Source: a virus
Length of the DNA stretch: 59,705 nt
Direction: 5' to 3' (one strand)
IMG/VR virus record: IMGVR_UViG_3300029319_000047
Location: 1-59,705 of that record
Below, one piece after another: positions 10,955 to 21,515 of the stretch. Below the pieces are notes generated by a model that was given only the letters and a program-made list of their open reading frames with translations, had not been told where the DNA came from and searched no databases. Position numbers and translations under genes: made by a program. The stretch's first letter is position 1. Every line of letters starts with the position of its first letter.

Positions 10955-11554
10955 TCAAACTCCAGTGGGATTCGAATAGTTATAGACATTGAGGAAATCG
11001 TACTTGAAGGTAACAGTCAACTGATGGAACTGATTAGTTGCGTAGTTAAATTCAGCAGCTTGCCAAGAAATTGGGTAAACACCATAAAGCTCGATGGTCG
11101 AGTGAGGAGTAAGGGTGTTGTCCAGCATTACAACTTCAACCTTGTCAGCCTTAAAAGTATTGCCCGCAGTGCCCCCAGGTTGAGAGCTTTTGGTCATCTC
11201 ACCTGTGAGAGGATCATAGGTATGACGGAAGAAGCGATAAAGATCAGCCGCAGTCTCACGAAGATAAAGATTATCAAAGTCTACAGAAAGCTCGCCAGGA
11301 GTGTTCTTTCCTGGATAGTGAACTCTATCGTTGACACGATCAATTGTCAGAGTTTCGTTCTTCATCTCAATGCCACCAACTCTTTTGGCTGCTAGAGTAA
11401 GATCTACTTGGTTCGTGACATCCTCTGGAAGACCAAAGAAGTGAATCTCAAACTGATATGCTCTAACCGAATCAAGATCAGTGGAAATAGTAGGCAGTCC
11501 CTGACCTGGGGTAAAGTCTCTACCGTATTTATTCTTGTAATATGATGTTGCCAT
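10955..11554 (-). CDS. 19: Tail tube protein, T4 gp19-like
   Basis: 199 residues. The conduit protein stacked in hexameric rings inside the sheath. Seen: LDSVRAYQFEIHFFGLP near the N-terminus, LTLAAKRVGGIEMKNETLT, and a C-terminal half with LTPHSTIELYGVYPISW and FHQLTVTFKYDFLNVY, the alternating strands of the gp19/Hcp fold. It lies directly downstream of the sheath gene with a strong ribosome site AAGGAG 7 nt before the ATG, and is the last gene before a strong terminator, as expected for a very abundant protein. Confidence 0.92.
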   Translation of the reverse strand: MATSYYKNKYGRDFTPGQGLPTISTDLDSVRAYQFEIHFFGLPEDVTNQVDLTLAAKRVGGIEMKNETLTIDRVNDRVHYPGKNTPGELSVDFDNLYLRETAADLYRFFRHTYDPLTGEMTKSSQPGGTAGNTFKADKVEVVMLDNTLTPHSTIELYGVYPISWQAAEFNYATNQFHQLTVTFKYDFLNVYNYSNPTGV

Positions 11555-11565
11555 TAATTATCTCC

Positions 11566-13773
11566 TTATAGGCTTCCTAACTGAGCCGACTGGTTAGTCA
11601 GGTTAATTTCAAAGATGAGGATCTCAGCAGTCTTGGTTGGCTTGATAAGAACCTTAGTCCAGAGTTCATTACGATCAACTCTGATTGGTGTGTTTACTGT
11701 CTCATCACAGATGACACGGAACTCGGTGATGCCCCTGCGTCTGCGGATGTCATCAAGGAATGGGTTGAGAACACCTTCGATTTGTGCGTAAGTAAATTCA
11801 TCGTTAGGTTCAAAGACAAATCTTTGAGTTGAAAGAAGAATTACTTTTCTAATAGCAATCATGAGCCTACGAACATTGATTCTATCAAGAGCCGTGGGAG
11901 CACGCTGAGTAGTTCTTTGCCCGAAGATTGTGATGCCTTGTTGTGGGAAGTTAACAATTGGGTTGATAACATTACCGCCACTATAGAGGCTATCTCTGTC
12001 GCCCTGATTTAGCTTGACCTCAACTTCAGTTGGCTTTGTAAGGCGACCTCTACGGAAACCAGCAGGAGCGAACCAGCTATCTGCAACTGCGTCAGTGAAG
12101 GCCATTTGTCTTGCACCAAAGATAGTGGGATCTAGGAAGCGATCTTTACCATCAAAGACTGAGAAGATCTTAACATGAGGCCAGTAGACAGCGGCGTAAG
12201 AACTGTTAAGTGCGGCAGTTCTTGAGTTTGCTGTAGAGGACGACTTGCCATTGGTCCAGTCAATCGCAGCCTGAACATTACCAATTGCAAGAGGTGGAGC
12301 CAGCAGGGCTAAGAAGTTTTGGGTTCTCTCAGCTAAGGTCACTAACTCATTCTGAACACTTTGAGTGTAGATTCCAGGAATAAGTGCTATACCGATGTTA
12401 AGAAGAGGATCATCTAGAGCTTGCATGCCAGTTTTTGGATCTTGACTGGCATCCCCGATTAGAGCGGTGGCTTGATCACTGTCATCACCATTTGTGCCAC
12501 CAGTAAGATTAGTTGCTGCGGCTTGAAGAAGTTTTACAAATCGACCACCAGAATCTGTTACAGGAGTTTCTACAGTTGCAGTTCCTACACCATCGGTCTC
12601 TGTCCCAGTGGGGAGTAAAGTTCTAGTTGTAGCATTAAAACCTGTTGCTCCAAAAAGAGTTTGAGCAACATCAATAAATCTGTTTAGCTTTGACGCTGTG
12701 GCATCAGCACCATCTTTTCTAAGGTTACCTTTGATAATTTCTGATGTGGCGTTTGTTTCTCCAGTATTAATTACGTCTTCTAAGAAAACACCAGAGCCGA
12801 GGAAGTTAGCTTTAAATGTTTCTTCAGCCACACCATCTTGATTTACAACAACACTAAAGTTTTGTGATCCAAGACCATTAATTGTAACACTGTTACCGCT
12901 AGCGTCCCCGTTAGTTTTAGTTCCACCATTATATCCAGTTCCTGGATGAATACTTTCTACTAAGTAGCTACAACTATTAGTGCCAGTAGATTCGAATGAA
13001 GTTCCGAAAGCTCTAACTGCGGAAGCATAGTTTCCTGAAACACCAAAGCTTGTTAGTGAACTTGGACCATAAGAAAGCCTAAGAGCAGAAACTCCAAAGG
13101 CAGGATTAAAAGTGGTGCCAGAACATGCAGATACACCAATAGAGGCACCAGATCCAGCGAAGGAACCCACAATGGCTCCTGAGAGTCCTAAGCTTCCATT
13201 TGTTATGGAGTCATCATCAAAAATTCCTACTTTATCAGCATCTAAACTTCCTCCAACAATATTTCTTAAAGCTAGAGCCTGGGTATTAGCAGTGCCTTTG
13301 ATAATCGTGAAGTCTTTTCCTGCTCCACTATTTTGAGTAAATTGTGCAACACCATTATTATCAAAAGCTTGAATTCTTAAAGTTAAGGAAGAAGCCCCAG
13401 TTCCTGTTCCGCCAAAGCAGTTAGCAGCATCAGTTCTACTTGCTGGTCCTGAAACAATGATCGCAGGGCAAAGACCCACTGACATTGTGGCAGAGGCATC
13501 AGTGGCGGCATCATTAGCGGCTCTCACAAAGAAAAGAGAATTTGTAGTTTCAAGAATCTCAAGACTTCCTTCAAGCGCCTGACCAGTTATATCCTCACTA
13601 GGAAAACCAAAAGTTTTAACAAGATTATTTTGATCAGTGATCAAAGTAGCTTTGTTAACTGGGCCTTTTGAAGCAAAACCAACAATACCTACGATTGATG
13701 TGTTAATCGAAGGAGCGAAATCTGATATGTCTTTTTCAATGGTGTAAACACCAGGGCTCACATAATTAGGCAT
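11566..13773 (-). CDS. 18: Contractile tail sheath protein, T4 gp18-like
   Basis: 735 residues. The N-terminus YVSPGVYTIEKDISDF and FVRAANDA are sheath hallmarks, as is the conserved C-terminal region: QQGITIFGQRTTQ, then INVRRLMIAIRKVI, then FVFEPNDEFTYAQIEGVLNP and the final domain with FRVICDETVNTP. The middle (about residues 90-390) is a Ser/Gly/Thr-rich variable insert exposed on the tail surface. It is preceded by GAGGATTAAGTT and followed 11 nt later by the tube gene, the usual pair. Confidence 0.95.
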   Translation of the reverse strand: MPNYVSPGVYTIEKDISDFAPSINTSIVGIVGFASKGPVNKATLITDQNNLVKTFGFPSEDITGQALEGSLEILETTNSLFFVRAANDAATDASATMSVGLCPAIIVSGPASRTDAANCFGGTGTGASSLTLRIQAFDNNGVAQFTQNSGAGKDFTIIKGTANTQALALRNIVGGSLDADKVGIFDDDSITNGSLGLSGAIVGSFAGSGASIGVSACSGTTFNPAFGVSALRLSYGPSSLTSFGVSGNYASAVRAFGTSFESTGTNSCSYLVESIHPGTGYNGGTKTNGDASGNSVTINGLGSQNFSVVVNQDGVAEETFKANFLGSGVFLEDVINTGETNATSEIIKGNLRKDGADATASKLNRFIDVAQTLFGATGFNATTRTLLPTGTETDGVGTATVETPVTDSGGRFVKLLQAAATNLTGGTNGDDSDQATALIGDASQDPKTGMQALDDPLLNIGIALIPGIYTQSVQNELVTLAERTQNFLALLAPPLAIGNVQAAIDWTNGKSSSTANSRTAALNSSYAAVYWPHVKIFSVFDGKDRFLDPTIFGARQMAFTDAVADSWFAPAGFRRGRLTKPTEVEVKLNQGDRDSLYSGGNVINPIVNFPQQGITIFGQRTTQRAPTALDRINVRRLMIAIRKVILLSTQRFVFEPNDEFTYAQIEGVLNPFLDDIRRRRGITEFRVICDETVNTPIRVDRNELWTKVLIKPTKTAEILIFEINLTNQSAQLGSL

Positions 13774-14015: not shown

Positions 14016-14831
14016 TTATCCACAAGCGTTAGAAACTCGCACTCTAATTGTAGCTATAGAGTTTTGTTCATCAGGCTCAGTAACTGTTTGATAAATATCA
14101 GGATAAACACCAAATACATAGTCTCCAATATCCGCTCTATAAACTTCTGGGAACACAAAAGTTCCAGAAAAAGTTTGTCCAACTAGTAATGAAGGTACAT
14201 CTGCGGTAGCCACTAACACAGCATCAGGATATGTTTCTGCTGCTTGAATAGTTAGAATAGCTTGAGTTGGAGCGTTGGCTGTGTCAGTAAATCTCCAGAA
14301 ACCCACAGTCTGTGGTTGGCTTGTATCTGTTCCCGTATTTTTTATCTCATAAGAATAGGTCAGATTAGGTGGTGATGGTCTACTTGAATATATTGAATTT
14401 GGGTCAGCACAATTATAAAATGCGTTTTGCATATTTGTAGGGGGATATATGCCTGTCCCTGAGCAAAATAGTTCAATTATGCCATTTCCATAGTTTGTGG
14501 TAAACTGTGTAGTAATAATATCTGGCCGAGGTGCAAACCCTGTACTAGCAGAATCACCTGCAAATCCTGTTCCTACAAAAACTTTTTGTTGAGTTGAGGT
14601 AGTTCTGGCACTAGAGTGTGGGGATTTACCATGAGAGGCTATGGCATCCCCAACTAAGGAAACTTTAATATTTTCTACAAAAACATTCTGAGACCCTGGG
14701 CCAATAATGAGTCCACCAGCGGTATCTACTTCTACCCTAGAAACACCGTTGCCTTGAACGAATACTCTACTGCTCCCTGTCTGCACATGTCCACATGATG
14801 CAGGTGCACTTTTATGAGATACTAAAGGCAT
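14016..14831 (-). CDS. PAAR-type tail spike tip protein with C-terminal extension
   Basis: 271 residues. The first ~90 form a PAAR repeat: SHKSAPASCGHVQTGS, SRVFVQGNGVSRV, GPGSQNVFVENIKVSLVGD, SHGKSPHSS and QQKVFVG. His6, His15, His67 and His72 fit the zinc-binding positions of PAAR tips (T4 gp5.4). The remaining ~180 residues (FTTNYGNGIIELFCSGTG onward) form a beta-rich domain I do not recognise, with an Ig-like strand pattern near the end. A PAAR tip sharpens the gp5-type spike, so it should meet the 45072-46175 product at the baseplate, yet the gene lies 30 kb away between gp15 and gp18. Its ATG overlaps the gp15 stop by one base. Confidence 0.8.
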   Translation of the reverse strand: MPLVSHKSAPASCGHVQTGSSRVFVQGNGVSRVEVDTAGGLIIGPGSQNVFVENIKVSLVGDAIASHGKSPHSSARTTSTQQKVFVGTGFAGDSASTGFAPRPDIITTQFTTNYGNGIIELFCSGTGIYPPTNMQNAFYNCADPNSIYSSRPSPPNLTYSYEIKNTGTDTSQPQTVGFWRFTDTANAPTQAILTIQAAETYPDAVLVATADVPSLLVGQTFSGTFVFPEVYRADIGDYVFGVYPDIYQTVTEPDEQNSIATIRVRVSNACG

Positions 14832-16978
14832 TATGTAATCTCAATATTAAATTCTTCAATCTCGCCTGTAGAAGTGACGAGAAACTTAGGACTTGGTATG
14901 TAAGTTCTTAAAACTACATTAAGAGTCTTTTTAATAACTCTATCCTCTTTATCATTAGCAGTCATTGAACCTGCTGCCTCCTCAGATTCCAAGAAGGCTT
15001 TTGCTAATGTTGAATACTCTGTGGGGACATTCATCTCTGGATTAAATTTGAGTCTAATTTGTTCAAGAATTTGATCCATATCTGCCATATACTTAGTATA
15101 AACATTAACCTGGTAGCTAATATTTACGGGTCTGGGAGATAAACTTAAAACTCTAACGGCTCTATGTTTTTCTTTATCGAAAAATTTTTCATGAACTAAT
15201 ACACTCTCATAACGTCTGCGCTCATCATCATTATTAGATATTGTTTGTGACACAGAAATTATTGGAAGAATAATATTATTTTCTTGTTTAAGTTTAGCAA
15301 TTGCACGTTCTGCGTTACCATGAATACATTTTATCTCTACAAAATCATCTTCTGAGTTAAAGTAACCAATATCATTAAAGGATGCGATCATGGATCGGAG
15401 AGATTCCTTGTAGATGAAGGAAATATTAGACTTAGCTTGAGTCATCTTGAAGATCTTAGCTCTAACATCACCTTCTCTAGTGGGCCATCTACGACTTCGA
15501 CTCTCTAACGATGATCCATCCCAAGTTGTATTTAAAGCTGAAGCATTCTCTACAAAACCAACGGTCGCTCCCGATTTAGATTTACCACCAAAACCGCCAG
15601 TTAGAGGGTCACTAGGGCTGGGAGCAGGAGGATCACTGACCGCTTGACTGACGACTGGAGCAGACGTATCAAAAACAAAAGTGATTCCTGACGTTGTTCC
15701 AAAATCATTTGTCAGATCCACTCTCCAATAGTATTCTTGTGAGTTATCGAGAGATGTTTCTAGAGTTACTGGTGGCGCTGTAGTTGCAACTATATTAGAG
15801 TCGGTTAAAGTAGAAGAAGTTCCTAGTAATACTTTTCTACTAGTAATTTTTTGATCAGGCTCAGACCAGCTAAGAGTTGTATTAACATCTACATTCTCTG
15901 CTCCATTTGCAGGAAAGGGGTTAGTAACAAGTCCAGGAACCTCAGTTGAAATAGTTTGTGCAAAAGCTCCAGGCTGGGTTGTTGGCCCACTTCTAGCAAA
16001 GCCTTCAATACCACTCGCTGGCACGTTAGAGTCTACACTAGGCCCTACGCCTTGATTAAGAGCAGTATTGCTTTTACTATCAAGTAATTGGCCCGTTGAA
16101 CCACTGAAAATAGAAAAACTTCCATCCCCAGGATTGGCACTGGTTGTTGGCTGAAGAACTATACCGATGCCCCCTCCAAGTGAACTAAAACTGTAAGAAC
16201 TGTTACTGGCCGCAGAGTTGCCTACATTATTCCTAGAACCAGTGATATCAACACCACCACCTGTGATATTAGCATCATCGCTTGCATTTTGTGCTAGGTT
16301 AATACAATTGATAATCTTGAATGAAGCATCAGGCATACCGCCAGTTAAAGCCCAGTTCCAAACTTGGTTTGTTGAACTTCCACTATTTAGATGGGTGCAG
16401 TTTACAAAAAGAATATGCGCCCCTTTTGTATGACTACCTCCTGAAATAAATTGAGACGTAGAAACAACAGAGCTTGTTACAACATTTCGAACTGTAATTG
16501 GTTCCGCACTCGTTCCAAGTGCATTATCTTTACCAAATTTTTGGCACTTAATTGCTGTTGTGTCCGCAGTTAGTTTTGCGTTCTGAATAATTGTTCCTGC
16601 TTGATCTGTGCCATAACCACTATCTGCACGAATTTGATAACAAGTGCCAGATTCCGCATTTAAATCAATACCATCCCAGGTAGTGTATGGATTAAAAATT
16701 CTAATCGCATTACCTGTTCCAGTATATTTATAAATTGGTTGTCCACTTGCGGCAGTGTACGATACATTTCTTGTGGCATCTGTGGTCAGTGATGTGCTTT
16801 GAATACTAAATACGCCAGCATTTGTGAAAGTTTCTGGGTCAACTTTAAAGACAATAGCTTCGTCATTTGCAACAAGATCGGCTGAAGTGCCGATAGTTTC
16901 AGTGGCAGCTTCTGCCAGTTGAAAAGTTGCAAAATCTCGCCCACTAGAGCCAATCGTTCTTGTAATAACTGTAACCAC
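14831..16978 (-). CDS. Fusion: beta-helix/FN3-like adhesin + gp15-type tail terminator
   Basis: 715 residues from a GTG with GGGAGG upstream. Residues about 1-340 are a right-handed beta-helix type domain (start TVITRTIGSSGRDFATFQ, later IINCINLAQN and similar turns), a type I recognise from free-standing phage and environmental adhesins. Residues about 345-445 look like a fibronectin III/Ig domain (NGAENVDVNTTLSW ... YYWRVDLTNDFGTTSG). A Pro/Ser/Gly linker follows. From about 490 the sequence becomes a T4 gp15-type terminator: ESLRSMIASFNDI, SPRPVNISYQVNVYTKYMAD, QILEQIRLKFNPEM. T4 gp15 caps tail tube and sheath. Synteny (gp13, gp14, then this, then gp18, gp19) supports that. The fusion would place an adhesin at the neck, like a collar or whisker. 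Confidence 0.78.
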   Translation of the reverse strand: MVTVITRTIGSSGRDFATFQLAEAATETIGTSADLVANDEAIVFKVDPETFTNAGVFSIQSTSLTTDATRNVSYTAASGQPIYKYTGTGNAIRIFNPYTTWDGIDLNAESGTCYQIRADSGYGTDQAGTIIQNAKLTADTTAIKCQKFGKDNALGTSAEPITVRNVVTSSVVSTSQFISGGSHTKGAHILFVNCTHLNSGSSTNQVWNWALTGGMPDASFKIINCINLAQNASDDANITGGGVDITGSRNNVGNSAASNSSYSFSSLGGGIGIVLQPTTSANPGDGSFSIFSGSTGQLLDSKSNTALNQGVGPSVDSNVPASGIEGFARSGPTTQPGAFAQTISTEVPGLVTNPFPANGAENVDVNTTLSWSEPDQKITSRKVLLGTSSTLTDSNIVATTAPPVTLETSLDNSQEYYWRVDLTNDFGTTSGITFVFDTSAPVVSQAVSDPPAPSPSDPLTGGFGGKSKSGATVGFVENASALNTTWDGSSLESRSRRWPTREGDVRAKIFKMTQAKSNISFIYKESLRSMIASFNDIGYFNSEDDFVEIKCIHGNAERAIAKLKQENNIILPIISVSQTISNNDDERRRYESVLVHEKFFDKEKHRAVRVLSLSPRPVNISYQVNVYTKYMADMDQILEQIRLKFNPEMNVPTEYSTLAKAFLESEEAAGSMTANDKEDRVIKKTLNVVLRTYIPSPKFLVTSTGEIEEFNIEIT

Positions 16979-16981
16979 GAT

Positions 16982-17323
16982 TTATGCCTCCCTGTCGATC
17001 GTAAGCGCCTGAATTTCAGACCATGTTTTTTCGATCCCCGCAGCCGCCGCTTGATCTTCAGGCACCCAAGTTTCAAACTCTGATCCTGTTAGCGTAACTT
17101 GATAGCGCCTCTTTAAAAGTAGTTCGCTAGGGGAATCCATCAGAGCCAGAACCTCTGGATCATCATGATTCTTATCGGTGATGTAACAGAATAAAAAACC
17201 ACTATCGGTGGGTGTAACAGATGATCCAGGATTTTGACCACCATCAAGCACTTGGATAACATCGTTATCTTCGTAGGTTAACCCACCACTTGGTTTAGCT
17301 GTGATAATAAGTGCGTGTGCCAT
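16982..17323 (-). CDS. Small unknown protein before the gp15 fusion
   Basis: 113 residues, not assigned a function. Starts MAHALIITAKPSGGLTYED, then IQVLDGGQNPGS, then LKRRYQVTLTGSEF. The first part resembles small phage proteins found next to beta-helix adhesins in environmental phage genomes (recollection, not verified). Stop to next start is 3 nt, so it is co-translated with the fusion gene; it might be an accessory of the adhesin domain. Confidence 0.65.
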   Translation of the reverse strand: MAHALIITAKPSGGLTYEDNDVIQVLDGGQNPGSSVTPTDSGFLFCYITDKNHDDPEVLALMDSPSELLLKRRYQVTLTGSEFETWVPEDQAAAAGIEKTWSEIQALTIDREA

Positions 17324-17324
17324 G

Positions 17325-17894
17325 TTAGTCTATACCTGCGTAGCCCCCAACATCATCGCTGACCCTGGTAAGTGGGGTGTCCTGAATATCATCAGAATCG
17401 CGGAGGAGTTTAGCAGAGCATACTAAATGGTAAACACCATACGCTTCGAAGCTATCCTCAACCACTTCGAAGATTTCGTACTTCTGCTCCTGGAACATGG
17501 GCTTGATCACATCGCCAGGAATGACAGGGCGACCAAGCTTTCTTTCAATATAGCTTTTATTGAAAGTAAATAGTTGATCGTTAGTAAGCTCAATGCCAAA
17601 CTGAGTAAGCTCCTCACTCATAGCTACGGGATCGTAGTGACCATGAACCGTGATGGGAGTTTTCGATATGGGCTTGTTACGAGACTCCATATACACTTCA
17701 TCGTACTCGTCAGTTTGGTAGTATTTGTAGAATAAAAACTTAGAGCCAGCAAGGCGAATCATCTCATCATCTACAAGGTTGAACAGATTGATGTCAGGGT
17801 TATCCTGATCAAATAGGTTCAGAAGCCCCTCACCCCCATCCAGATCAGGAAGTTCGGGAAGCTTCGTAGTTACCTTGTAGTTTTTGTTTTTCAT
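17325..17894 (-). CDS. 14: Neck protein, T4 gp14-like
   Basis: 189 residues. The segment GDVIKPMFQEQKYEIFEVVED followed by VYHLVCSAKLLRDSDD matches the gp14/stopper pattern, where a lid on the head-tail connector is formed. LFYKYYQTDEYDEVYMESR earlier also fits. The gene lies three down from gp13 and just above the gp15-type gene, the T4 order. It overlaps the upstream gene by 4 nt (ATGA). Confidence 0.75.
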   Translation of the reverse strand: MKNKNYKVTTKLPELPDLDGGEGLLNLFDQDNPDINLFNLVDDEMIRLAGSKFLFYKYYQTDEYDEVYMESRNKPISKTPITVHGHYDPVAMSEELTQFGIELTNDQLFTFNKSYIERKLGRPVIPGDVIKPMFQEQKYEIFEVVEDSFEAYGVYHLVCSAKLLRDSDDIQDTPLTRVSDDVGGYAGID

Positions 17895-18670
17895 ACGGGA
17901 CGATCAAGACCTAATTCTCTAGTCTTTTTTCTTTTAGCTGCCATTTCTTCTTTTCCTTTAGACAAAGGCTTAGGTGTATCTAAACCACCAACAGCAGCCA
18001 TGGGGGAAACCCCCTTACCACGCATTACTTTGCCCATTCTATCTGCTCTTCTTTTTGCTGCCTCTTCACCACCGCCAGATACTTCGGCGTGCTTTTTTGG
18101 GCTATAAACCTCAGATAAGACTTTGCCTATTTGCTTGTATACAGTCCAAGATTCCTCCTGCTGCTCTGGCTTCATCTTATCAGTTGCCATTTCTGCTCCT
18201 TTTTTAGCAGCCTTTTTTGCCACACCACCAACAACTTTTTTACCAATAGCTTTTGCGGCCATACCTAGAACAGGAGCAATTTCATCAACACGATAGCCGA
18301 GAGCTTCTGCCATCATGAGGCCCATGCGTTTGTACTCAGTATGGCTTTCATTTTTTTTACCCATGGGAGCAATATTTTGATCAGGGTTTTTGAGAGTCTT
18401 TTTGCCTTTGGGGAGCTTGCTAAGATCCGTTTTTTTGGCACCTGTGAAACCCATGTCAGCTAACATAGATCCTGGTTTTACTCCTCGTTTTTCTTCTTCG
18501 CTAATGCTAAGAACTTTTTCTAGATAACTCATTTTAGATTCCTCTGTTTTTTCTACACCTGAGATGGTGCCTTTATTTTTGGAGGCGTAGAAAACTTTCT
18601 CGCCCTCTTTTTCGCCATACTGCTTACGCATAGCCCGCATGATCTTCTTACCTTTTTGTGATAGTGGCAT
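17891..18670 (-). CDS. Basic, protease-tagged head protein (unknown)
   Basis: 259 residues, rich in Lys and Ala. N-terminal module MPLSQKGKKIMRAMRKQYGE followed by VFYASKNKGTISG is a short module common in phage head proteins. Then two copies of a helix cassette: ESHTEYKRMGLMMAEALG (about 108-125) and EESWTVYKQIGKVLSEVY (about 172-189). Each ends in a (L/M)xE site like those cut by the T4 gp21 protease. The rest is Lys-rich and could bind DNA. It sits between gp13 and gp14 but looks like an internal head protein. See the finding on shared cassettes. Confidence 0.7.
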   Translation of the reverse strand: MPLSQKGKKIMRAMRKQYGEKEGEKVFYASKNKGTISGVEKTEESKMSYLEKVLSISEEEKRGVKPGSMLADMGFTGAKKTDLSKLPKGKKTLKNPDQNIAPMGKKNESHTEYKRMGLMMAEALGYRVDEIAPVLGMAAKAIGKKVVGGVAKKAAKKGAEMATDKMKPEQQEESWTVYKQIGKVLSEVYSPKKHAEVSGGGEEAAKRRADRMGKVMRGKGVSPMAAVGGLDTPKPLSKGKEEMAAKRKKTRELGLDRPV

Positions 18671-19554
18671 CAGAACATCGTGAAGGCAGGGGGCTCTTCA
18701 ATTTCAGATAGAAGCTCTTCTTTGAGCTTTTCTTTTTCTTGATCACTCTGTTGAGTCAGAGCAGCGCCGTTAAGACTAGCTCCACCTCCTGGCGAGGGAA
18801 GGGAGGAATATTTACCTCTTACTTCACCAAGGATTCCCTTGGACACAGCAAGAGCGTATCGTTGAATCCAGTTCCTGTAGTATGGATGCATCGTAGCAGT
18901 ATCAAGACCACGATATACTAAGATAACTGTCTCACCATTGAAAGTGGGTGTGGGGTATAACTGAAGAATGTTACCATTGATGAGATCCCAAGAACCCTCC
19001 TGACTGAGAATCTTGCGTATCATCTCTAAGTGTGTTTGTAACAAATAAAAATCAGATACAGCAAAATTACTGAACAAGAAGTTATCTTGGAAATATTTGA
19101 TAAAGAAATCAAACTCTAGACTTCCTGCCATATTTTGAATACTAAGTAGAGATTTTTTATATGCACAATAGCTAAGACCATTTGCAATGTGCATTGGTAG
19201 CATATACATGTTTATACCACCAGAGGTCTCAAACGCTGCTATCTGTGTGCACCAGAAAGGAGCATGATAATCTAGATGAGTGATCGACTCATCAATAGCA
19301 GATTTAATCTGAAAGTCTGTAAGCTCTACTCTTACAACTGGATGTCCCAGTCGGCCAAGGATAAAATCCTTGATTGTTTGTTCAAATTGGTTGAGTTCTA
19401 TTCCCTCTTCAAAAGTGCTTTTATTTAACTTATCCGAGTCAATAGCAGTTGAAAAAATATCTGTATCACCGAGGTTCCTACCTGCGTAGGTTCCAAAGGT
19501 GTCACCGTAACCTAGTAATCTAGGATCTACTTTGGGTGCTGCTGCTATTGGCAT
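18670..19554 (-). CDS. 13: Neck protein, T4 gp13-like
   Basis: 294 residues. LNQFEQTIKDFILGRLGHP with FQIKSAIDESITHLDY is the gp13 N-terminal helical region; RNWIQRYALAVSKGILGEVR, the loop GGGASLNGAAL and the end EEPPAFTMF match the gp13 C-terminus. With gp14 it forms the neck that closes the filled head and receives the tail. One-base overlap with the next gene; the upstream small gene overlaps its start by 35 nt. Confidence 0.88.
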   Translation of the reverse strand: MPIAAAPKVDPRLLGYGDTFGTYAGRNLGDTDIFSTAIDSDKLNKSTFEEGIELNQFEQTIKDFILGRLGHPVVRVELTDFQIKSAIDESITHLDYHAPFWCTQIAAFETSGGINMYMLPMHIANGLSYCAYKKSLLSIQNMAGSLEFDFFIKYFQDNFLFSNFAVSDFYLLQTHLEMIRKILSQEGSWDLINGNILQLYPTPTFNGETVILVYRGLDTATMHPYYRNWIQRYALAVSKGILGEVRGKYSSLPSPGGGASLNGAALTQQSDQEKEKLKEELLSEIEEPPAFTMF

Positions 19555-19814: not shown

Positions 19815-21515
19815 TCAGCTTACTGCTGTGCCGAAAACTTCAGAGTTTCTAGCGAATGGGCTGAAGAGATAGTTGGCGGTTGGGCCAATAATACGGATGA
19901 TACGATAGTATCTGTTTCCTGGCTCGATCTGTACCTTGCCATAGCGGGTAAGGATGCCCTTTCTGGGCTGGAAGGACTCAGGATCCGTAATGGTTGGAAG
20001 CTGCTGGAGTGGGATGTATGGAGCGTAGATAAGACCAGCATCCATTGCATTGGCACCCTTGTAGCCAACCATAATCTCGTCTGTGGGGTACATAGGATCG
20101 ACATAAAGGTCGTAACGGCCCATGAACTTACCACGGAACTCAATGGCGTTTGCACCAATGTTGGTGGGGCCATCAGCAGGCTGAACACCACCCTCAAGCT
20201 TGGCAGCACTCTCAAGAAGAGAAGCGACCAGAGGTGAGGTAAGGAGCCAGTTGCCTGGACCACGCATTGTGGTGCGGTAGATGTCCTGCGAAGCAAAGTT
20301 AATTATTGCAAGCAGGTTTGCATAAACCTCACCAACGTGGCGTGGGTAGAGGCTAAGGCTATCCTGGCTGAAATCAATCACAAAGACATTGGAGCTTTCC
20401 CGATTAGGTATATCAAACTGGGTAGCAGTATTAGTACCTTGAGCACCAGAGAAGTCGTAGGTGAATTGAGCAGGAACAAAGACGCCAGTTGCAGCAGAGT
20501 CTTGAACGCCTGGGAAACGGCCAGCAGCACGATCACCCATAGTGATATAGCTGTTATCCATGAGGTTCTGGTTTACACCACCAAGATTACGATCACGAAC
20601 ACCATAAGCGATCAGACGAAGATCTTCAATAAGCTCGCGGTCGATCTCAAGCTGAAGCTCCTTCGAGAGAAGGTCAGTAAGCTCCCGCTCAAGGTCAAGG
20701 TTGTGATAAGCCTTGAGATCTTGTGAAGCCTCAAGAGTCCAGAGAGCACGCATCTTACGAGTGTTGGCGACAACGGCCTCCTGCTCGATATGGAAGGTCA
20801 TCTCAGGGATGCCAGTTCCAGTCAGGCGCTCACCAGCGGAGAGCATGTAGCCCATGACGGCAGAAGTGTTAGGCCAAGCAGCGATTTGACCACCGAAAGT
20901 ACCAGAACCAGCACCAGCGCCAATGATATCATTGACACCAGAAGTACTGGCAAGGACGTTGGAGAGGTCGAAGCCAGCACCAGCAAAATCACCATCAAGA
21001 CCAAGAGATGCCGCAGAGAGTTGGTTGCCGTCCTCATCAGTGAAAGTACCCTGAGCAAAGGCAGTTCCACCACCCTCGACATTTCTTTGAGAAGTAGTAC
21101 CAGAAGCAGAACCAATACGCTGGGCAGTCTTACCCAGGTAGGTCAGGTTGAACTTGCTGAAGACAGTCTGACGGTCACCAGCACCAGCGCCGCCGTTACG
21201 AGCACGGCTGTTACCAAGGTAGAAAACCTGCGAGACTGGACCCTGCATGGGCTGAACGCCAACAAGCTGGTTGGCAATTAGTTGGGGATAAACCCGACGA
21301 ACAAGAGGGAAGGCAAACTTTTGGAAAGTACCAAGCTGACCAGTTGTGGTGGCAGCGGCACTAATATCCTCGGAAAGCTTCTCCTCAACAATAGACTTAG
21401 CTTGGTTCTCAAGAAGTTGAGCGGTTACGCGACGAGTGTAGTCACTGCCAATGCCCTCAAGGACAGGCTCCCACTTCTGGACTAGCGTGTCATCAGTTTG
21501 ATGCATCATATCCAT
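19815..21515 (-). CDS. 23: Major capsid protein, T4 gp23-like
   Basis: 566 residues. The HK97-fold capsomer subunit of T4 type. Seen: LVRRVYPQLIANQLVGVQPM followed by GPVSQVFYLG, which is the signature of gp23; VANTRKMRALWTLEASQDLK and LDLERELTDLLSKELQLEID; and the end YYRIIRIIGPTANYLFSPF. The N-terminus up to about residue 40 (PVLEGIGSD, TAQLLENQAK) holds VLE and LLE sites, suggesting removal of a short delta peptide by the prohead protease. Followed by a strong terminator. Confidence 0.96.
   Translation of the reverse strand: MDMMHQTDDTLVQKWEPVLEGIGSDYTRRVTAQLLENQAKSIVEEKLSEDISAAATTTGQLGTFQKFAFPLVRRVYPQLIANQLVGVQPMQGPVSQVFYLGNSRARNGGAGAGDRQTVFSKFNLTYLGKTAQRIGSASGTTSQRNVEGGGTAFAQGTFTDEDGNQLSAASLGLDGDFAGAGFDLSNVLASTSGVNDIIGAGAGSGTFGGQIAAWPNTSAVMGYMLSAGERLTGTGIPEMTFHIEQEAVVANTRKMRALWTLEASQDLKAYHNLDLERELTDLLSKELQLEIDRELIEDLRLIAYGVRDRNLGGVNQNLMDNSYITMGDRAAGRFPGVQDSAATGVFVPAQFTYDFSGAQGTNTATQFDIPNRESSNVFVIDFSQDSLSLYPRHVGEVYANLLAIINFASQDIYRTTMRGPGNWLLTSPLVASLLESAAKLEGGVQPADGPTNIGANAIEFRGKFMGRYDLYVDPMYPTDEIMVGYKGANAMDAGLIYAPYIPLQQLPTITDPESFQPRKGILTRYGKVQIEPGNRYYRIIRIIGPTANYLFSPFARNSEVFGTAVS

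Follow-up and report, generated by a model that had tools for sequence, protein, structure and literature searches.

In the phage DNA of IMG/VR virus record IMGVR_UViG_3300029319_000047, positions 1 to 59,705 (the window), the gene for the tail terminator gp15 is fused at its 5' end to a long sequence encoding a beta-helix and an FN3-like domain. Such extensions recur among relatives of this gp15, and the same beta-helix, preceded by a small companion gene here termed s113, is found fused to other virion proteins in unrelated phages. It is probable that gp15 gained its surface adhesin by way of a horizontally mobile two-gene cassette that was inserted at the gp14/gp15 boundary. The wider proposal is that the cassette moves among myo-, sipho- and podophages and is anchored by the product of the adjacent downstream virion gene, even where this requires the gene to be split, with tail terminators, nozzles and tail-tip proteins all serving as display platforms; the odds of this joint claim are judged slightly better than even.

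Studies of phage host recognition usually look to tail fibres and baseplates. On the cassette reading, a core protein of the head-tail joint would be a recurrent platform for receptor modules, and the module would be common to different tail morphotypes that anchor it differently. Annotation pipelines give these proteins no label beyond 'tail sheath stabilizer' or 'nozzle', with the consequence that this class of adhesin is overlooked.

The adhesin-gp15 fusion

The structural genes of the window form a T4-type block, recognised from the ORF list and from Pfam and PHROG matches, that lies entirely on the minus strand (Table 1). A 259-aa ORF lies between the gp13-like adaptor and the gp14-like gene of this block, and the capsid and sheath proteins are less than 60% identical to those of every isolate.

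Table 1. Features of the gp15 region of the window and of the surrounding structural genes
Feature	Position	Strand	Basis
gp23	19815-21515	-	
gp13-like adaptor	18670-19554	-	
gp14-like neck gene, directly upstream of the cassette	17325..17894	-	identified by gene order only
s113, 113-aa companion ORF between gp14 and the adhesin	16982..17323	-	
Shine-Dalgarno sequence AGGGAGG, 8 nt upstream of the fusion-gene GTG	16987..16993	-	read from sequence
Adhesin-gp15 fusion gene, 715 aa, GTG start, single ORF	14831..16978	-	Pfam/PHROG gp15 matches; fused relatives
Beta-helix adhesin module, ~aa 1-340	15959..16978	-	tandem homologous modules in relatives; model and Foldseek
FN3-like domain, ~aa 345-440	15659..15946	-	Foldseek to FN3 domains; FN3 of relatives
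Disordered linker, ~aa 443-483	15530..15652	-	pLDDT <50 over most of aa 443-483
Complete gp15 with N-terminal segment of plain relatives, ~aa 478-715	14834..15547	-	PF16724; homology to 245-aa plain gp15; Foldseek
PAAR and CARDB ORF downstream of gp15 (context, outside the cassette)	14016..14831	-	PF07705 4.5e-5; PF05488 2.3e-4; PHROG 281 2.9e-7
gp18 sheath	11566-13773	-	
gp19-like tube gene	10955-11554	-	

The assignment of the C-terminal part to gp15 follows from its sequence, from the position of the gene between gp14 and gp18 in the window and in relatives, and from its predicted fold. Pfam family T4-gp15_tss (PF16724) matches residues 524-714 (E 5.2e-13; 49.2 bits, cut-off 25), and PHROG 227, the tail sheath stabilizer family, matches the fusion protein at 8.4e-10. 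In the AlphaFold2 model (mean pLDDT 72.5), an N-terminal region rich in beta-strands is followed by an FN3-like domain, then by a disordered linker and finally by a gp15 fold, and the best Foldseek match of the model is T4 gp15 (9mkb_AB, 3.4e-7; also 4huh and 4hud), followed by FN3 domains and then, weakly, by the PL6 beta-helix lyase 7dmk (E 0.011, prob 0.99). No Pfam match above cut-off was obtained for the beta-helix or FN3 part of the window protein; the assignment of these domains is weak by sequence alone, but is supported by the fn3 domains of relatives and by the predicted fold, and the FN3-like domain is 55% identical to the FN3 of one relative (L001). Both the gp15 and its fusion were confirmed as genuine. 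The sequence-only reading, in which one frame was taken to join a beta-helix, an FN3-like domain and a gp15-type terminator, was borne out, and its coordinates and domain boundaries were accurate to within a few residues.

The junction itself retains a trace of the ancestral gene. In relatives with a plain gp15, translation starts at a position equivalent to about residue 478 of the fusion protein, where the window has GTT. The segment that precedes the gp15 core and ends in PTREGDVR is common to the window and to plain relatives such as L008, and the retention of this segment makes the window look like a fusion formed at the old start codon, now GTT. Between residues 430 and 512 there is no in-frame ATG, GTG or TTG, which excludes a complete gp15 that is started separately.

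Extensions among gp15 relatives

Relatives were collected from viral contigs with two successive queries, first the whole protein and then an alignment of gp15, giving 106 distinct contigs including the window, after 22 repeat contigs had been merged by contig name; near-duplicates that came from different samples were retained. All of these relatives are metagenomic contigs without hosts. No isolate closely related by gp15 was found, the only match (25%) being LR756511, a metagenomic jumbo phage whose gp15 of 350 aa is without an adhesin.

Where it can be read, the gene order in the relatives is gp23-gp13-gp14-[extension]-gp15-PAAR-gp18-gp19, and the position of gp14 next to gp15 is kept in plain and fused relatives alike. 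Plain gp15 genes, with 22-56 aa before the conserved core and directly after gp14, are found in 74 of the 106 contigs, leaving about 70% of relatives without any extension. Large N-terminal extensions are present in 13 contigs, with 377-3073 aa in frame (some end at a contig edge, such that their lengths are minima), and small ones of 165-195 aa in 11; a single contig (L050) has a C-terminal extension, of ~695 aa and without a PHROG match, and in the remaining seven the status of gp15 is not readable owing to contig ends. As a control, none of 81 pelagiphage-type gp15s has an N-terminal extension of more than 11 aa. The arm is peculiar neither to this phage nor to gp15: an extension recurs in about a quarter of the gp15 group, and the same beta-helix is fused to other anchors in siphophage-like and podophage-like contigs.

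On the gp15 tree the large extensions need at least five changes and all N-terminal extensions 10, while the starred branches alone require at least two changes for the large and at least four for the small extensions. Arms have thus been gained or lost repeatedly, and they differ while the gp15 of the relatives stays 65-89% identical to that of the window. For instance, tandem beta-helix modules of ~330 aa homologous to the window module are found in L083 (Pfam Beta_helix at 1.4e-3, below cut-off), L028 and L084, the last with 3073 residues before gp15; arrays of FN3 domains precede gp15 in L049, L019 and L079 (Pfam fn3 at 8.7e-17 in L049, and also in L079 and L086); and a single beta-helix with FN3 is found in the window and in L001. 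In the case of L068 (2193-3632), gp15 is fused to an alpha/beta-hydrolase of the BD-FAE esterase family (6e-7), with no further esterase-gp15 fusion in the collection searched. The 165-195 aa extensions of L103, L120, L125, L113, L056 and L020 form a family of their own, without s113 and without a PHROG match. Not every gp15 extension is a cassette, since several T4-like ones (the FN3 arrays, the esterase and the 165-195 aa family) occur without s113.

Relatives with adhesin and gp15 as separate genes had been named as a finding that would speak against the fusion. No separate adhesin gene was found in the plain relatives, but L048 (5273-5968) has an additional 232-aa ORF without a family match between gp14 and gp15; no other relative has an additional gene there.

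A two-gene cassette with interchangeable anchors

When the beta-helix modules were used as the sole query against viral contigs, matches were also obtained in phages that are not T4-like, and in these a homologue of the 113-aa ORF always directly precedes the beta-helix when the contig extends far enough upstream. Conversely, the s113 protein as sole query retrieved 37 contigs, with a beta-helix ORF directly after the s113 homologue at all 30 loci (window included) where the downstream side could be read; two further loci agree with this order. The ORF after s113 typically begins with the beta-helix motif (M)VTVITRTIGPSGRDY. Neither s113 nor the beta-helix module was found in the isolates searched, and no genome contig matched. 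The s113 protein has no PHROG family, and although its AlphaFold2 model is confident (pLDDT 87.8, pTM 0.80), the fold has no match below E 1 in PDB or BFVD. The constant linkage suggests that s113 is an assembly partner or cap, and it is probably a factor specific to the adhesin.

The C-terminal partners of the beta-helix include gp15, a T7-type nozzle, a lambda gpL-like protein, a DUF2460 tail protein and others of no named family, such that one domain family is carried by different structural proteins of unrelated phages. In L264, L256 and L260 the beta-helix is followed, within the same ORF, by the C-terminal portion of a podophage nozzle. Upstream of s113, an ORF examined in L264 and L256 corresponds to positions 1-583 of the nozzle profile PF25675 (3.9e-163), and the end of the beta-helix ORF corresponds to positions 585-790 (3.7e-39). 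With the two halves on either side of it, the cassette lies inside the nozzle gene and splits it at profile position 584. If true of the particle, an essential tail protein would be assembled from two chains, with the adhesin at the cut. The L284 partner resembles the minor tail protein gpL (PF05100 1.3e-4; PHROG 18 1e-6) and has a gpJ homologue as its neighbour. For L289 the partner is a DUF2460 protein (4.7e-5), flanked by a tape-measure gene (5.3e-23) and a gpL gene (2.8e-11). The assignments of these two partners, to gpL and to DUF2460, fall short of the curated Pfam cut-offs and rest partly on gene context. In L317, s113 follows a possible head cement protein (1.2e-3, below cut-off).

These arrangements can be accommodated by a cassette that would consist of s113 and an adhesin ORF lacking its own stop codon. 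The adhesin frame would run into the next gene, whose product would be borrowed as the anchor.

A separate observation concerns L310 (12943-14145), where the C-terminal part of the cassette adhesin reads like an SGNH hydrolase, with GDST near the start and HFKPLSYKKYGERFA near the end, and has no Pfam match.

Horizontal transfer

With the window sequences as reference, gp14 is 81-93% identical across the T4-like s113 loci. In L016 and L309, gp14 identities of 92.6% and 92.5% are paired with s113 identities of 40.7% and 35.8%, and in L292 and L293 gp14 is 81-84% and s113 65% identical. The s113 proteins of the nozzle contig L264 and the gpL contig L284, both without gp14, are 78% and 77.5% identical to that of the window (82-83% in the multiple alignment). 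The window s113 is therefore close to those of podophage- and siphophage-like contigs and distant from those of some T4-like kin with a gp14 of ~92% identity, which indicates horizontal transfer. This conclusion rests on the identities and not on the s113 tree, which is poorly resolved, has long branches, includes untrimmed upstream residues and is too poor to date or direct the transfers. The GC content of the window cassette is 41-45%, as compared to 61-65% in the L264 and L284 contigs, and the nucleotide identity between the window cassette and these high-GC contigs is ~66%; the transfer is therefore not recent, but old enough for composition to have adapted. Taken at face value, the pattern suggests a ready-made surface-binding module that is passed by phages between particle types.

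Proposed display at the neck and alternative explanations

In T4, gp15 forms the hexameric ring that tops the sheath, and the fibritin loop docks on this ring (PMC3004832). By homology, the six arms at the neck envisaged in the sequence-only reading would be expected here also, with the beta-helix/FN3 arms radiating from the neck ring on flexible linkers of ~40 residues. In other contractile phages the terminator has its C-terminus embedded in the uppermost ring of the sheath (PMC10491603, PMC12886913); with that end buried the N-terminus would be the freer one, in keeping with the 24 N-terminal extensions as against one C-terminal extension. Anchored on a nozzle or a siphophage tail-tip protein, the same adhesin would be shown at other points of the virion. 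Glycans are suggested as the ligand by the beta-helix fold, with its weak PL6 match, by the FN3 domains and by the esterase seen in one arm; the arm would most likely bind polysaccharide reversibly, on host cells or on particles, as a supplement to the baseplate fibres. The cassette reading predicts density at the neck, glycan binding and a function for s113.

An enzymatic role is one alternative, whereby the beta-helix would be a depolymerase that cleaves polysaccharide, as in many tailspikes. The Foldseek match to a PL6 alginate lyase and the esterase domain borne by the gp15 of L068 are consistent with such a role. However, the fold match is weak and reflects the beta-helix alone, there is no Pfam lyase match, and the residues that all modules have in common are chiefly Gly, Pro, Asn and Thr and include few that could be catalytic; a depolymerase is judged unlikely. 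The resemblance to PL6 is one of fold, and no PDB lyase was matched by sequence. The arms could instead be structural, as a whisker analogue or collar that holds the tail fibres at the neck in the manner of T4 fibritin, and gp15 would be a natural platform for a collar given that fibritin contacts both gp15 and the long tail fibres (PMC3004832). This suggestion, made in the sequence-only reading, found no positive evidence and is quite unlikely to be correct: the fusions are to beta-helix, FN3 and esterase domains with no Pfam or PHROG fibritin match in the window or in fused relatives, the arm is beta-structured in the model and shows neither the coiled coil nor the foldon of fibritin, and most gp15 relatives do without an extension. 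Moreover, the same beta-helix is anchored on nozzle and tail-tip proteins, in phages in which no such collar is expected, which counts against a neck-specific role.

Other explanations concern the fused frame rather than the arm. Use of an internal start, such that only part of the gp15 is made with an arm, could be imagined at the ATG codons at residues 512 and 530, but neither is accompanied by a clear Shine-Dalgarno sequence, and initiation at 512 would omit the conserved PTREGDVRAKIFK segment of nearly all plain and fused relatives; there is only a slim chance that such a start is used. Mixed gp15 rings may also arise through proteolysis. Neutral accretion, whereby long extensions are tolerated at a free N-terminus without a selected function, accords with the majority of relatives that have no extension, yet is very improbable in view of open frames of up to 3073 residues that remain intact, repeated independent acquisition, and the conserved linkage to s113. 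Finally, an assembly error joining two genes has a negligible probability, and was ruled out by comparable junctions in fused contigs of several metagenomes, in which the gene order is undisturbed to either side.

Relation to known systems

The C-terminal 235 aa of the fusion are like T4 gp15 (PF16724; PDB 4HUD/4HUH/9MKB) in sequence, gene position and fold. Neither T4 gp15 (272 aa in PDB) nor the gp15 of pelagiphage HTVC008M (271 aa) has an adhesin, whereas the window protein has ~480 additional N-terminal residues and its relatives up to 3073. T4 fibritin is a separate protein, composed of a segmented coiled coil and a foldon, that is bound non-covalently. The fibritin whiskers (wac) are comparable to the proposed arms as a six-fold appendage at the gp15 ring, but differ in being a separate protein, and no sequence relation to the arm was found. 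In the case of Staphylococcus phage 812, the tail terminator also has an added domain, an extra beta-sandwich, but this domain is structural and binds the sheath, and is not a long swappable arm (PMC12886913).

Domains that decorate virion proteins are known from other phages. As described in PMC5009743, which cites Fraser et al. 2006, Ig-like and FN3 domains are promiscuous on phage virion proteins, being added non-homologously to different structural proteins and suspected of binding carbohydrate; they have an Ig fold and are typically C-terminal, sometimes via a frameshift. The cassette is similar in the variety of its carriers, but its core is a beta-helix rather than an Ig fold, with FN3 as an accessory, and it has a constant companion gene, is N-terminal to its anchor and is able to split a nozzle gene. 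In the 936 lactococcal phages, carbohydrate-binding modules are carried by several virion components including Dit, the major tail protein and the neck passage structure (PMC6669499). These modules are confined to one phage group and to dedicated or tail proteins, with none reported on a tail terminator (PMC6669499), and there is no cassette common to different tail morphotypes as is the case for s113. Modular tailspike depolymerases likewise swap a specificity module, often a beta-helix, on a conserved anchor (PMC6872550, PMC8262889), but are dedicated receptor-binding proteins with an N-terminal anchor, whereas the cassette has its anchor at the C-terminal end, in the form of an unrelated core protein of the virion. 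A search of the open-licence literature found neither a gp15 with an adhesin arm nor a two-gene cassette whose C-terminal anchors are different core proteins in phages of different tail type, though an earlier report may exist elsewhere.

Other features of the gp15 region

Two adhesin arrays are divided between overlapping frames, in L028 (1680-4619 and 4574-8758) and in L049 (1-1804 and 1783-7263), which may represent either a sequencing error or a real frameshift. The C-terminal gp15 fusion is that of a single relative, L050/L110, with the ORF at 7455-10301 of L110 and no family match for the added part. Both the window and its relatives have an ORF with a PAAR domain between gp15 and gp18, which is an unusual location for a spike-tip protein; its length varies from ~90-100 aa in many relatives to 260-310 aa in others, with a CARDB-like addition in the window.
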